Source of the DNA: Candidatus Latescibacterota bacterium | GTDB taxonomy: Bacteria; Latescibacterota; UBA2968; SICM01 | DNA: 34,523 nt | NCBI GenBank assembly: GCA_009694805.1 | Contig: SICM01000029.1 | Span: 1 to 34,523, forward strand | Direction of reading: 5' to 3' | Shown: positions 2,967 to 34,523 of the stretch, piece by piece | Position numbering within the stretch: the stretch's first letter is position 1 | How the letters are laid out: each line of letters opens with the position of its first letter | Position numbers and translations under genes: made by a program | Notes under the pieces: model-generated | What the model was told of the DNA's origin: nothing | The model's input: only the letters and a program-made list of their open reading frames with translations | The model's database searches: none

Positions 2967-3177
2967 AAGGCGCGCCGTCCCGGCTTTCAAGCAGAGCGTC
3001 CGTTCAGGCAAGGTGGGGTACGAGCGCCGAAGGCGCGGGGGTGCAGTGGAAGGGGCTCGTCCTACCACGGGACCCCGATTACGCCACTGGACAGAGTACG
3101 GCGCGCCAAAGCCCCTCCGGCGTCTGAGGAGCGTGCTTCTTTTGTCCAACTTTTCTTGCACGAGCAAGAAAAGTTGG
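2967..3177 (+). repeat. Dispersed repeat element, copy A, ending in a perfect hairpin
   Basis: This 211-base stretch between asnB and the next glycosyltransferase matches 32,133-32,349 along nearly its whole length and in the same orientation. The first 60 bases differ at only a handful of positions, and the right end matches strongly again. It ends in a perfect 14-bp stem (3146-3159 with 3164-3177) closed by the loop ACGA. No T-run follows the stem, so it is not a typical intrinsic terminator. No convincing protein is encoded. The element fills almost all of the 259-base gap, ending 30 bases before the next start codon. Confidence 0.85.
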
Positions 3178-3207: not shown

Positions 3208-4332
3208 ATGCGCGTCCTCTTCGTCATGCCCTACGGCGCCCTGGCCGCCAGCAGTCGGACGCGGGTCTATCAGTATTTTCCTTACCTGGACCGGGCGGGG
3301 ATCTCCTACGACGTCCTGACGGTCTTCCCGGACGCCCGCATCCACGGCATCACCCTCCCTCTGCTCAGGGGGCCGGCCCGCAAGGTCGTCTACTACGTCG
3401 AGGGCTGGGTCCGGACCCTCTGCGTGGGCTGGCGCACGCTCCTCCGGGCGCGGCGTTACGATGTCCTTTTTTTTCAGCGGGCCATGCTTCCGCCCCCCGT
3501 CCCGGCCCTGCTCCGGTGGCGGAAGACCCGCATTGTCTACGACTTCGACGACGCGACCTTCACGACCGACGTCACGGAGCGGAGCCTGGTCAACCGGATC
3601 GTGCGCTGGCGGAACAGCCGGGGGCTGCCCCCCATGCTCAGGACCTCCGCGCACGCCATCGTTGAGAACGACTACACGCGGGCCTACGCGGAGCGATACT
3701 GCCCCCGCGTCTCCACCATCACCGGCCCCATCGACACGGACCGCTACCGGCCCCTGGAATCCCCGAAGCCCTGCGGGAGTCCCGTCGTCCTCGGCTGGAT
3801 CGGAAGCCCGACCACAGAGAAGTACCTGGAGACGATCCGGAGGCCGCTGGAGGAGGTCGGGAGACGATTTTCAAACGTCCGCCTCGTGCTGGTCGGGGCC
3901 TCGTCGTTCGAGGTCGCGGGGCTGCCCACCGAACGCCTGAAGTGGGATGTCGAACGGGAGGTGGCCGACCTCCGGACGTTCGACATCGGCCTGATGCCCC
4001 TGCCCGACGACGAGTGGACGCGGGGCAAGGGGGGCTACAAACTGCTTCAGTACATGGCCGTCGGCATCCCGGCGGTGACCAGTCCCGTGGGCGTCAACCG
4101 CGTCCTCGTCTCCGACGGCGCCGATGGCTTCTGGGCGGCCGGGGAGGAGGCGTGGACGGACCGCCTCTGCCGCCTGATCCGGGACGCCGACCTCCGACGC
4201 AACACGGGCGCAGCGGGCCGCCGGAAGATGGAACGCGAGTATGCCCTGTCGGTCAGCGCAGACCGGTGGATTGAGATCCTGAAGGCGACGTGCCCAGACC
4301 CATCCGCATCCTCCGCATCATCGACCGCCTGA
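3208..4332 (+). CDS. Glycosyltransferase, GT4-like (GT-B fold)
   Basis: A 374-residue protein resembling group 1 (GT4-type) glycosyltransferases. The N-terminus, MRVLFVMPYG with SSRTRVYQYFPYL close behind, matches the first Rossmann strand and acceptor side of GT-B enzymes that process surface polysaccharides. The C-terminal donor half contains VLGWIGSP (about 191-198) and GKGGYKLLQYMAVGIPAVTS (about 273-292), the sugar-nucleotide binding region. It would transfer a sugar from an NDP-sugar to a growing lipid-linked or surface glycan at the inner face of the membrane. ATG at 3208 follows GGGGAG at about 3197-3202. The 3' end overlaps the next glycosyltransferase by 43 bases, implying co-transcription and coupled translation. 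Donor and acceptor cannot be told from sequence. Confidence 0.85.
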   Translation: MRVLFVMPYGALAASSRTRVYQYFPYLDRAGISYDVLTVFPDARIHGITLPLLRGPARKVVYYVEGWVRTLCVGWRTLLRARRYDVLFFQRAMLPPPVPALLRWRKTRIVYDFDDATFTTDVTERSLVNRIVRWRNSRGLPPMLRTSAHAIVENDYTRAYAERYCPRVSTITGPIDTDRYRPLESPKPCGSPVVLGWIGSPTTEKYLETIRRPLEEVGRRFSNVRLVLVGASSFEVAGLPTERLKWDVEREVADLRTFDIGLMPLPDDEWTRGKGGYKLLQYMAVGIPAVTSPVGVNRVLVSDGADGFWAAGEEAWTDRLCRLIRDADLRRNTGAAGRRKMEREYALSVSADRWIEILKATCPDPSASSASSTA

Positions 4333-31075: not shown

Positions 31076-32113
31076 ATGGCCTTCGTCGAGACCATGAAGC
31101 CTCGGGAGCGCGTCCTGGCGGCGCTCAACCGGCAGCCGGTGGACCGCACGCCCTGCTCCAACCCGACCTCGGTGGCCACGGTGGAGCTGATGGACCTGGT
31201 GGACGCCCCGTTCCCCGATGCCAACCGGGACCCGGAGAAGATGGCCCGGCTGGCCGCCACGGGCTACACGGAACTCGGCTTCGACAGCATCATGCCGGTG
31301 TTCTCGATCATCCAGGAGTCCTCGGCCCTCGGTTGCGACATCCAGTGGGAGGAGAAGGACAACTGGCCCACCGTGCGGATGAACCGGCCCATCTGGAAAA
31401 CCCCTGATGACATCAAAATCCCCAAAGACTTCCTGAAGCACAACGATACGAAGTGCGTCCTGGAGGCCATCCGAATCCTCAGGCGGGAATTCGGCGACGA
31501 GGTCGCCATCATCGGCAAGACGATGGGCCCCTGGTCCCTCGGCTACCACTGCTTCGGCGTGGAGAACTTCCTGCTGATGTCCTATGACGATCCCGACAAG
31601 ACGAAGCGCTGTCTCGACCTCATGAAGGAATCCACGGTGGTCTTCGGCAACGCCCAGATCGAGGCCGGCGCCGACGCCCTCACCCTCCCCGACCACGCCA
31701 CCGGCGACCTGGTCAGCGGGGAATACTACAGGGAGTACTTGCAGGACCTCCACGTCGAGTTTGCCGACCAGATCAAATGCCCCCTCATCCTCCACATCTG
31801 CGGGAACACCCTGGACCGCATGGGCTACATCGCGCAGACGGGCATGCACTGCTTCCACTTCGACTCTAAAAACGACCCTCAGGCGGCCCGCCAGATCACG
31901 GAGGGCAAGATCGCCCTCGTGGGCAACGTGAACAACCCGGAGACCCTCTATGCGCGCAGCCCGGAGGTGGTGCGGAAGGAGATCTACCGATGCCTCGACG
32001 CGGGCGTGGAACTCGTCGCCCCGGAGTGCGCCATCCCCCTCCGCACGCGGCTCGAAAACCTGACGGAGATTCCCAAAGCCGTCAAGGACTGGCACAGGGA
32101 GCACGCGAACTAG
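31076..32113 (+). CDS. MtaA/UroD-family corrinoid-dependent methyltransferase
   Basis: A 345-residue TIM-barrel protein of the uroporphyrinogen decarboxylase superfamily, on the methyltransferase side (MtaA/MtbA/CmuA) and not the haem enzyme. The N-terminus KPRERVLAALNRQPVDRTPC is typical of this group. The zinc motif of MtaA-like enzymes is intact: His240-x-Cys242 in LHICGNT and Cys318 in APECAIPL. Such proteins move a methyl group between a corrinoid protein and a thiol or from a methylated substrate. ATG 31,076 has GGAGGG 6 bases upstream; an earlier in-frame ATG (31,034) lacks one. A B12-binding protein and a homocysteine methyltransferase-like gene follow, so it probably loads or unloads that corrinoid. 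Direction and substrate are unknown. Confidence 0.88.
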   Translation: MAFVETMKPRERVLAALNRQPVDRTPCSNPTSVATVELMDLVDAPFPDANRDPEKMARLAATGYTELGFDSIMPVFSIIQESSALGCDIQWEEKDNWPTVRMNRPIWKTPDDIKIPKDFLKHNDTKCVLEAIRILRREFGDEVAIIGKTMGPWSLGYHCFGVENFLLMSYDDPDKTKRCLDLMKESTVVFGNAQIEAGADALTLPDHATGDLVSGEYYREYLQDLHVEFADQIKCPLILHICGNTLDRMGYIAQTGMHCFHFDSKNDPQAARQITEGKIALVGNVNNPETLYARSPEVVRKEIYRCLDAGVELVAPECAIPLRTRLENLTEIPKAVKDWHREHAN

Positions 32114-32132
32114 ATCTCGTACAGATAAAAAG

Positions 32133-32349
32133 AAGGCGCGACGTCCCGGCTTTCAAGCAGGGCGTCCGTCCAGGCACGATGGGGTACGAGCGACGCGAAG
32201 CGGCGCGGGTGGGTGGCGGAAGGGGTTCGGACTACCACCGGACTCAGATTACACAACCCGAACAGAGTACGGCGCGCCCAGCCTCCCGCGGCGCTTGAGC
32301 GGGCGTGCTTCTTTGGCCCCACCTTTCTTGCACGAGCAAGAAAAGTTGG
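32133..32349 (+). repeat. Dispersed repeat element, copy C
   Basis: This is the second long copy of the element at 2967-3177, in the same orientation and similarly placed: 20 bases after one stop and 31 bases before the next start. The left 60 bases and the right end (AGAGTACGGCGCGCC, then TTTCTTGCACGAGCAAGAAA) are nearly identical between copies, while the middle has drifted. The terminal hairpin is less perfect here (8-bp core, 32,324-32,331 with 32,336-32,343). It accounts for most of the 267-base gap and holds no credible gene, although reading frames extend into it from both sides. Confidence 0.85.
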
Positions 32350-32380
32350 CAAGTGTAAGTGTGGACAAGAAAGGACCTCG

Positions 32381-33259
32381 TTGAGCACCCTCTTAGACCG
32401 CCTGAAATCCGGCGAAGTCCTCATCTCCGACGGCGCCACGGGGACCTACCTCCAGGGAAAGGGCCTGGAGCCGGGCGGGTGTCCGGAGGAGTGGAACGCC
32501 TCCCACCCGGAGGTCGTGCAGGGCATGGCCGCCGACTACTTCGCCGCCGGGGCCGACGCCGTGGAGACCAACTCCTTCGGCGGCAGCCCCTTCATGCTCA
32601 AAAAATACGGCTATGCCGACCACCTTGAGGAACTCAATCGCCTCGCTGCTCGGCACGTCCGGAGCGCCGCCCCCCCCCACTGCTACGTCATCGGCTCCGT
32701 AGGACCCACCGGGGAATTCCTGGAGCCCCTCGGACCCGTAAGCGTCGAGGAGATGTACGAGGGGTTCGTTCGACAGGTAACCGCCCTGGCCGAAGGGGGG
32801 GCTGACGCCATCTGCGCCGAGACCATGACCGCCCTCGAAGAGGCCTGCCTGGTCGTCCGGGCCACGAAAGAGCACACGGACCTGGTGGCCATGGCGACCA
32901 TGACCTTCGACAAAGGCCCGCGCGGGAACTTCACCATGATGGGCGTGACCCCGGAGGACGCCGCCCGGGGTCTGCTCGACGCCGGGGCGGACGTGGTCGG
33001 CTCCAACTGCGGCAACGGCATCCTCTACATGGTCGAGATCGCAGGGGAGTTTCGAAAAGTCACCGATGCTCCCATCCTGATCCACGCCAATGCGGGCATC
33101 CCGGTCATCCGGAAGGGGCAGATCGTCTACCCCGAAACCCCGGACTGGATGGCCCCGCACTTCCGGGCGCTCGTGGATGCCGGGGCCACCCTCGTCGGCG
33201 GCTGCTGCGGAACGACGCCGGATCATATACGAGCCATTGTCAGGGCGCTGCGCGAATAG
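32381..33259 (+). CDS. Homocysteine S-methyltransferase-domain protein
   Basis: A 292-residue TIM-barrel protein matching the homocysteine-binding module of MetH and of BHMT/MmuM enzymes. Landmarks: ISDGATGTYLQ (about 14-24), NASHPEVV, ETNSFGGSP, IGSVGPTGE, and the zinc cysteines Cys210 in GSNCGNG and Cys275-Cys276 in GGCCGTTPDHI. It should bind homocysteine as a zinc thiolate and accept a methyl group, here most likely from the corrinoid protein encoded next. The start chosen is TTG 32,381, with AAGGA 5 bases upstream (32,371-32,375). The open frame reaches further upstream only through the dispersed repeat, and no ATG fits. The folate-binding, corrinoid and reactivation modules of MetH are absent from this chain. 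Confidence 0.88.
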   Translation: MSTLLDRLKSGEVLISDGATGTYLQGKGLEPGGCPEEWNASHPEVVQGMAADYFAAGADAVETNSFGGSPFMLKKYGYADHLEELNRLAARHVRSAAPPHCYVIGSVGPTGEFLEPLGPVSVEEMYEGFVRQVTALAEGGADAICAETMTALEEACLVVRATKEHTDLVAMATMTFDKGPRGNFTMMGVTPEDAARGLLDAGADVVGSNCGNGILYMVEIAGEFRKVTDAPILIHANAGIPVIRKGQIVYPETPDWMAPHFRALVDAGATLVGGCCGTTPDHIRAIVRALRE

Positions 33260-33264
33260 AAATT

Positions 33265-33293
33265 GTAGGGGCGACCGGCCCGGTCGCCCCTAC
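33265..33293. repeat. REP-like perfect palindrome between methyltransferase genes
   Basis: GTAGGGGCGACC (33,265-33,276) and GGTCGCCCCTAC (33,282-33,293) form a 12-bp perfect stem with a 5-base loop. It starts 5 bases after the stop of the homocysteine methyltransferase-like gene. A short mixed tail follows (CTTGCCCTTATG), not a T-run. I recognise the sequence style as a palindrome dispersed in many environmental genomes. It may stabilise or separate the two cistrons' messages. Confidence 0.8.
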
Positions 33294-33318
33294 CTTGCCC
33301 TTATGAGGTCTTGACCCT

Positions 33319-34071
33319 ATGCCGATCACGAATGAAGGTATCCAGCAGGAGATCGACAAACACGTCCACCGCCCGGAGGAACAGGAGAAGTTCATCGCCT
33401 GGTTCAGCGAGATCTCTCCCCTGATGCAGGACATCGCCTATGCCCTGATCAAGGGCAAACAGCACGACGTCAGCCGGCTGGTGAAACAGGCCCTCGACGA
33501 GGGCGTGGAGGCCCACGACGTGCTGGACGACGGCCTGATCGCCGGCATGGGCATCATCGGGGTGAAGTTCCGGGACAACATCATCTTCGTCCCGGAGGTC
33601 CTCGTGGCCGCGCGGGCCATGAAGGCCGGGATGGCCCACGTCGAGCCCATCCTCTCTGCGGCCGGCATCGAGCCCGTCGGAAAGGTCATCATGGGCACGG
33701 TGAAGGGGGATCTCCACGACATCGGCAAGAACCTCTGCATCATGATGCTGCGCGGGGCCGGGTTTGAGGTGATCGACCTCGGCGTGGACACCAAGCCCGA
33801 CCAGTTCATCGCCGCCGTGGAGGAGCACGACGCCCGCATCGTGGGCATGTCCGCGCTCCTGACGACCACGATGCCCAACATGGGGAAGACCATCCAGGCG
33901 TTCATCGACGCGGGGCTGCGGGACGACGTCAGGATCATGGTGGGCGGCGCGCCCGTGACCCAGGACTTCGCCGACGAGATGGGCGCCGACGGCTACGGCA
34001 AGGACGCCATGGCCTGCGTGGCCAAGGCCAAGGAATTCGTCGACGCATCGGGGGTCTCGACAGAGGCGTGA
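33319..34071 (+). CDS. B12-binding corrinoid protein (MtaC/MtbC/MetH-cap type)
   Basis: A 250-residue carrier of a corrinoid cofactor. The helical cap domain (about 35-115) includes IKGKQHDVSRLVKQALDEGV and VGVKF-like GVKFRDNIIFVPEVL. The Rossmann B12 domain (about 120-240) has GDLHDIGKN, with Asp131-x-His133-x2-Gly136 for His-on ligation of cobalt, GMSALLTTTM, and MVGGAPV. The protein would shuttle a methyl group between the two neighbouring methyltransferases. Compared with MtaC it has a longer N-terminal tail (about 30 residues). ATG 33,319 has GAGG about 10 bases upstream. Its stop overlaps a GTG of the next small gene, so the two are closely coupled. No corrinoid reactivation (RACo-like) protein is in the window. 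Confidence 0.93.
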   Translation: MPITNEGIQQEIDKHVHRPEEQEKFIAWFSEISPLMQDIAYALIKGKQHDVSRLVKQALDEGVEAHDVLDDGLIAGMGIIGVKFRDNIIFVPEVLVAARAMKAGMAHVEPILSAAGIEPVGKVIMGTVKGDLHDIGKNLCIMMLRGAGFEVIDLGVDTKPDQFIAAVEEHDARIVGMSALLTTTMPNMGKTIQAFIDAGLRDDVRIMVGGAPVTQDFADEMGADGYGKDAMACVAKAKEFVDASGVSTEA

Positions 34072-34073
34072 GC

Positions 34074-34334
34074 ATGGCCGGACCGGACAGGGCGCGATTT
34101 CGGAAGAGCCTCGACCGGCTCAACGAGATCATGGGGGAACTCGTCAAGAAGGCGGAGGAGGTCTCGCTCCAGCGCTGCCCCTACAAGAACGCCGAGGACC
34201 GGTGTACCGCCCACTTTGGATGCCGTTACCAGAGGCCGCCCCTGGAGCCGGAGGGCCTGAAGGTCTGCACGAGCGACGACAAGCTGGACTACCGGAAGGC
34301 GTGGGAGGTCGATGAAGCGAAGGATAAAGGATGA
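34074..34334 (+). CDS. Small four-cysteine protein coupled to the corrinoid gene
   Basis: An 86-residue hydrophilic protein I do not recognise with certainty. A helical N-terminal half (FRKSLDRLNEIMGELVKKAE) is followed by a cysteine cluster, Cys35-x8-Cys44-x5-Cys50-x14-Cys65, around CPYKNAEDRCTAHFGC. The pattern could bind zinc or an iron-sulfur cluster. ATG 34,074 is preferred over the GTG at 34,068 because AGAGG (34,062-34,066) then has a 7-base spacing. It begins 2 bases after the corrinoid protein stop, so a role in that system, such as redox reactivation or assembly, is an inference from position only. Its last codons and stop lie in the left arm of an inverted 7-bp repeat array. Confidence 0.7.
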   Translation: MAGPDRARFRKSLDRLNEIMGELVKKAEEVSLQRCPYKNAEDRCTAHFGCRYQRPPLEPEGLKVCTSDDKLDYRKAWEVDEAKDKG

Positions 34335-34378: not shown

Positions 34379-34523
34379 CATTTCCGTAAAGTTAAGCTTA
34401 ACATATTGAATAAAAATAAGATACAAAAAATTATATGGGGGATTCTGCGAGCATTTCTTAGGAGAACTCACCCATTGGCCCGCCTAAAGTGGCCTCTGCG
34501 CCCCTAATTGCTGAAAAATCGAG
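34379..34523 (+). other. AT-rich non-coding tail with a 12-bp palindrome
   Basis: The final 145 bases contain no gene. A perfect palindrome GTTAAGCTTAAC (34,391-34,402) is followed by an AT-rich stretch. TTGAAT (34,406) and TTATAT (34,431) are spaced 19 bases apart, a poor promoter match. AGGAG at 34,460-34,464 might be a ribosome site, but no convincing start and open frame follow before the window ends. Confidence 0.4.

Follow-up and report, generated by a model that had tools for sequence, protein, structure and literature searches.

In Ruegeria pomeroyi, a hub formed by MtgC, MtgD, MtgE, MetF2 and RamA is used to demethylate betaine and also to make methionine, and MtgD is essential for either function (PMC12478193). 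The corrinoid protein MtgC is the center of this hub: MtgB (PF06253) donates the methyl group from glycine betaine, MtgD exchanges methyl groups with folate in both directions and MtgE makes methionine; the proposed roles of MetF2 and RamA are the oxidation of methyl-tetrahydrofolate (methyl-THF) and the recharging of the cobalt, respectively (PMC12478193). A three-part methionine synthase, equivalent to the Ruegeria set minus the donor enzyme, has been shown genetically in Phaeobacter (PMC5764234). In MtaA-like proteins (Mlp), His-Cys-Cys zinc ligands have been linked to sulfur or selenium substrates (PMC10418091). Modular B12 methyltransferases outside Proteobacteria and Firmicutes have been little studied. 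Here, we describe a set of methyltransferase genes at the right end of a 34,523-nucleotide stretch of DNA from Candidatus Latescibacterota bacterium (the window), which is one whole contig (SICM01000029.1; C222 in our numbering) of a 4.9-Mb metagenome bin. On balance, we favor the reading that these genes form the first (5′) half of an operon for methyl transfer through a corrinoid protein, of the split methionine synthase/demethylase type, in which an MtaA-like methyltransferase of the UroD fold (UroD below) takes the donor slot. We found no paper on this exact cluster in the literature searched, which is no proof of novelty.

Results

Gene content of the contig end

The right end of the window holds four co-directional genes:

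31076..32113, + strand: MtaA-like (Mlp) zinc methyltransferase of the UroD fold, 345 residues (PF01208, TIGR01463, 4AY7, zinc ligands, orthologs)
32381..33259, + strand: single-domain homocysteine S-methyltransferase (HcyMT; MtgE/Bmt-like), about 292 residues (PF02574, PRK07534, motifs, orthologs)
33319..34071, + strand: free corrinoid protein with B12 cap and B12-binding domain, 250 residues (PF02607 + PF02310, 1Y80, DxHxxG)
34068..34334, + strand: small four-cysteine protein (sm), 88 residues (invariant Cys 37, 46, 52 and 67; link to RACo in relatives)

The first three had been reported as encoded together in the original prediction, made from the DNA letters and their open reading frames, and this is borne out by their shared direction and by strong family and Protein Data Bank (PDB) matches, all far above chance. 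The fourth, a conserved open reading frame inside the same interval (31076-34334), had gone unmentioned. UroD, for which 31034 is an alternative start, matches PF01208 (E 2e-71) and scores 279.6 bits against the NCBIfam model mtaA_cmuA (TIGR01463; cut-off 235.4), which makes it a member of the MtaA/CmuA family. Against NF040654, the equivalog specific to coenzyme M-using MtaA, it reaches 251 bits, under the cut-off of 400. Its nearest solved match is MtaA itself, methylcobalamin:coenzyme M methyltransferase (PDB 4AY7, E 2e-54). The zinc site, His240-X-Cys242 ... Cys318, is complete and its ligands are invariant across 12 aligned relatives. The other PF01208 matches of the genome lie on other contigs, leaving a single Mlp in the window. 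We considered a heme enzyme as another identity for UroD and rejected it: a separate PF01208 match of the HemE kind is located on C66 (447 bits), while the window protein, with a score of 76, stays below the hemE cut-off of 303.

HcyMT has PF02574 as its sole domain (E 1.5e-64), matches the Thermotoga maritima MetH and keeps the zinc cysteines of the family (motifs NCG and GGCC); its score against PRK07534 is 238 bits, below the cut-off of 338. The most likely start is TTG 32381 rather than GTG 32213, because the part upstream of the TTG sits in a genome-wide repeat. Orthologs 60-69% identical occur in Chloroflexota, Entotheonella and Fuerstiella. The corrinoid protein matches PDB 1Y80 (E 3e-62) with the B12 motif DxHxxG intact, and its gene overlaps that of the 88-residue protein by 4 bp. 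The latter shows the pattern RCPY...C...C...C...LDYR.AW and matched no Pfam or PDB family, and its AlphaFold model had low confidence; in relatives it is often fused to the N-terminus of the activator RACo or directly precedes it.

Continuation of the operon on a second contig

The window stops inside a repeated element, and the genes that would follow are found on another contig, C202:

34369..34378, no strand: 10-bp target-site duplication (TSD) ATCCTTCATC, pairing with the start of the C202 flank
34379..34523, no strand: left arm (145 bp) of a 215-bp element resembling a miniature inverted-repeat transposable element, terminating contig C222
C202 7126-5513, − strand: RACo activator, RamA-like (RACo/DUF4445)
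C202 about 5491-3910, − strand: methylene-THF reductase (MTHFR) with DUF5981 C-terminus, in two frames
C202 3833-2712, − strand: methyl-THF:corrinoid methyltransferase (MeTr), pterin-binding (PF00809; PRK07535)

The 215-bp element has terminal inverted repeats CGTAAAGTTAAGC, and its arms sit at about 26 contig ends, fragmenting the assembly. A 75-bp overlap between C222 and C202 was rejected as insufficient proof of adjacency, as it falls within this element. Because the overlap lies in repeated DNA, we used TSD pairing to join the contigs. Insertions of the element carry a 10-bp TSD wherever both sides could be paired. We compared 14 left-arm ends with 12 right-arm ends. Exactly one partner with a perfect 10-bp match was found for six of the left ends, and the TSD of the window, ATCCTTCATC, matches only C202 among the 12. 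This motif is locally repetitive, so the join was also checked against synteny: C202 begins with the body of RACo, which is single-copy in this genome. Together, the TSD, synteny and the single-copy RACo strongly support C202 as the likely onward part of the operon.

This join changes the reading of the gene set. The separate HcyMT and corrinoid proteins do correspond to modules of the methionine synthase MetH, as originally predicted, but the accompanying claim that UroD replaces the folate module fails because MeTr and MTHFR are present on C202. The same arrangement is found in a Chloroflexota contig (L104), which carries, unbroken, UroD-HcyMT-corrinoid-small-RACo-MTHFR-MeTr. MeTr scores 215 bits against PRK07535, below the cut-off of 259. 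A contig break can thus produce a false ‘missing module’.

In the rest of the genome, we found a complete MetH of 1153 residues with its own activation domain on C181; MetH and RACo, two of the genes proposed for checking, are both present. MetE-C-type proteins also occur and are too generic to decide whether a MetE is encoded. The MtgB family PF06253 gave no match in the genome, with a positive control detected. No DUF1638 partner was seen in the operon, and no genome-wide search for one was made.

Relatives and gene neighborhoods

Scanning a single genome for each species returned 322 UroD relatives. The best 80 are 72-77% identical to the window UroD and span about nine phyla, coming from Latescibacterota, Poribacteria, Acidobacteriota, Gemmatimonadota, Chloroflexota, Planctomycetota, Alphaproteobacteria, Entotheonella (Tectomicrobia) and Verrucomicrobia. 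Neighbors were counted on the same strand from −5 to +9 kb in 81 loci, many of which are ended by contig breaks. The most frequent, c5 (73 loci), is a protein of about 211 residues with two CGxxH motifs that directly precedes UroD in relatives. It is followed by the corrinoid protein (62), RACo (57), the small four-cysteine protein (48), HcyMT (30), MeTr (23), MTHFR (21) and PF13769 (21). UroD and the corrinoid protein are the most conserved parts at about 72-77% identity, compared with 54-64% for RACo and MeTr. Besides L104, many other loci of relatives hold similar operons.

In a tree of UroD, the window protein falls in a clade (support 100/100) with six Chloroflexota and one Entotheonella, away from other Latescibacterota. 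The typical gene order in this clade, which has an orthologous HcyMT, is (PF13769)-HcyMT-c5-UroD-corrinoid-small-RACo. Together, this suggests that the operon has been transferred, although a binning error or deep paralogy may also account for it.

No Pfam family was found for c5. Its structure was modeled confidently, with a predicted local distance difference test score (pLDDT) of 89 and a predicted template modeling score (pTM) of 0.84, and a fold search of the model against the PDB gave no match with E ≤ 0.001. At the Poribacteria loci L155, L156, L159-L161, L166, L167, L171, L172, L174, L178 and L179, c5 is paired with UroD but neither a corrinoid gene nor RACo lies nearby. The c5-UroD pair may therefore be the functional core. 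A solitary c5 copy is present in the genome under study on C175 (L208), 3229-3924, minus strand.

Other features of the two contigs

Downstream of MeTr, and between or beyond the genes in the window, we annotated the following:

C202 2701-1865, − strand: amidohydrolase
C202 1803-1462, − strand: PF13769 protein
C202 (L095) 74-1126: 2-hydroxyacid dehydrogenase
32131..32349, no strand: one copy, located between UroD and HcyMT, of an intergenic repeat of ~220 bp with dispersed copies (blastn)

In environmental bacteria, PF13769, a family named ‘virulence factor’, regularly accompanies the genes for corrinoid proteins, MTHFR and HcyMT (L054 3732-4004, L095 1462-1803 and many other loci), and because of this constant company its name looks misleading. 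The surroundings of the operon repeatedly include 2-hydroxyacid dehydrogenases from a single family (L095, L146, L151, L153, L157, L126, L149 and L150), perhaps reflecting serine or one-carbon (C1) metabolism. Upstream of the operon, a kinase-like gene (L059 4391-5395; cluster c9/APH in other Latescibacterota loci) weakly resembles S-methyl-5-thioribose kinase, with 55 bits against a cut-off of 275, and gives a faint hint of methylthio metabolism. A plasmid search for annotated relatives returned only matches of about 26% identity, mostly HemE.

The ~220-bp repeat copy lies within the 267-bp gap between UroD and HcyMT; blastn placed further copies at 2967-3177 in the window, ahead of metH on contig C181, and on contigs C281 and C202. 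A 29-bp near-perfect palindrome, GTAGGGGCGACC...GGTCGCCCCTAC, at 33265-33293 between HcyMT and the corrinoid gene looks like a dispersed hairpin element.

Discussion

Proposed function and alternatives

The gene set and its adjacency are observed directly or strongly supported, as is the zinc site of UroD. We give UroD the donor slot because all parts of the hub are present, PF06253 is absent and UroD, with the corrinoid protein the best conserved part, is the sole additional methyltransferase in the operon; from this we infer its role, the kind of donor and the direction of transfer. An S- or Se-methyl compound would be the likeliest substrate, because the His-Cys-Cys zinc site is of the kind linked to sulfur and selenium (PMC10418091). 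In the scheme that we propose, RACo, perhaps aided by the four-cysteine protein, would reduce the corrinoid protein to Co(I), and the zinc of UroD would bind the sulfur or selenium of the methylated compound so that the methyl group passes to cobalt. The methyl-corrinoid would then have two outlets: MeTr, which would move the methyl group to folate and give methyl-THF for oxidation by MTHFR, or HcyMT, which would convert homocysteine to methionine. Without the donor, MeTr would run in reverse and the set would act as a split folate-dependent methionine synthase. The originally predicted route from an unnamed methyl donor through the corrinoid to homocysteine is thus retained in part, with homocysteine as the likely recipient of the methyl group, while C202, if adjacent as proposed here, contradicts the folate-free form of the route.

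Several observations weigh against this assignment. The UroD fold is equally compatible with an acceptor role, as MtaA itself methylates coenzyme M, and the neighbors offer no firm clue to a donor. The complete MetH makes the operon dispensable for methionine alone. The MTHFR gene on C202 has an apparent frameshift (L095 about 4380-4085), which may be an assembly error or real decay. Finally, the join of C222 and C202 is based on a TSD in a locally repetitive motif, on synteny and on a single-copy gene.

If UroD acted on the acceptor side, as MtaA does, MeTr would charge the corrinoid protein from methyl-THF, and UroD would move the methyl group on to a small acceptor that is not homocysteine but another thiol, a selenol or a sulfide. 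We consider this unlikely, although the nearest characterized relative, MtaA, works in this direction, the His-Cys-Cys site suits thiols (PMC10418091) and many relatives with UroD, the corrinoid protein and RACo have no HcyMT close to UroD. Our check for coenzyme M genes returned one ComA-family match in the genome, which would fit such a role, but this family, which also registers in Bacillus subtilis, is no diagnostic marker for coenzyme M. Nearby we saw neither a product nor a dedicated thiol pathway, and the downstream MTHFR and MeTr suit catabolic use of a donor better. The many relatives that keep UroD without a nearby HcyMT speak against a plain split folate-dependent methionine synthase, in which UroD and c5 would be accessory proteins for assembly, repair or regulation and no methyl group would enter through UroD. 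MeTr, the corrinoid protein, HcyMT and RACo do make up the three-part synthase set of Phaeobacter (PMC5764234). With UroD being the most conserved component and keeping all zinc ligands, and with a MetH already in the genome, we regard an accessory UroD as distinctly improbable.

The component list also fits the acetogen type of four-component system, for O-demethylation or for haloalkanes, with UroD as methyltransferase I (MT I), the corrinoid protein, MeTr as methyltransferase II (MT II) and an activating enzyme, and the MT I enzymes OdmB, MtvB and CdmB belong to the UroD superfamily (PMC13222342). O-demethylases of the superfamily, however, have one or both cysteine ligands replaced (PMC10418091), CdmB is without zinc (PMC13222342) and the closest solved match of the window UroD is MtaA, which together leave little room for this assignment. 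Folate-free transfer from a donor to homocysteine only, in which UroD stands in for the folate module, holds for the window contig taken alone; since C202 adds this module and MTHFR to the operon, and relatives have them too, we find it hardly tenable.

It is conceivable, though we hold this only tentatively, that an undescribed, phylum-spanning system uses a conserved MtaA-like enzyme to feed S- or Se-methyl groups into a hub of folate C1 and methionine metabolism, together with the c5 and four-cysteine families. This UroD group couples an MtaA-like enzyme with a split methionine synthase hub in many, mostly uncultured, lineages, and for a large share of these the donor would define a route of C1 or of sulfur/selenium metabolism. 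Two undescribed conserved proteins, c5 and the four-cysteine protein, accompany the system.

Comparison with known systems

Like MtgBCDE and the three-part synthase, the operon has separate HcyMT, corrinoid and pterin-binding proteins, a RamA-like activator and a second MetF arranged around one hub. It differs from MtgBCDE in having UroD instead of the PF06253 protein MtgB, in the added four-cysteine protein and, in relatives, c5, and in the complete MetH elsewhere in the genome. UroD matches the extra donor-side module, MtgB, best, and not the folate module. Judged from its genes, the operon would work like MtgBCDE but, with MtgB absent, is not a strict member of that system. With the type 1 mlp clusters (PMC10418091) it shares an MtaA-like His-Cys-Cys protein, a corrinoid protein and a RACo-type activase. 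These clusters contain two or more Mlp, whereas one is found here; their definition requires that no tetrahydrofolate methylase lies within 20 kb, whereas MeTr is present on C202; and the phyla found here are mostly outside Firmicutes. We therefore do not classify the operon as a type 1 mlp cluster, based on the single Mlp and the folate methyltransferase. UroD has the fold and zinc ligands of MtaA (PDB 4AY7), but it scores under the equivalog cut-off. In the acetogen O-demethylase and Cdm systems (PMC13222342), a UroD-superfamily MT I, a corrinoid protein, an MT II and an activating enzyme are encoded together as in this operon, but the zinc ligands and closest relatives differ and HcyMT is extra here. 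In contrast to canonical MetH, the modules of the operon are placed on separate polypeptides.

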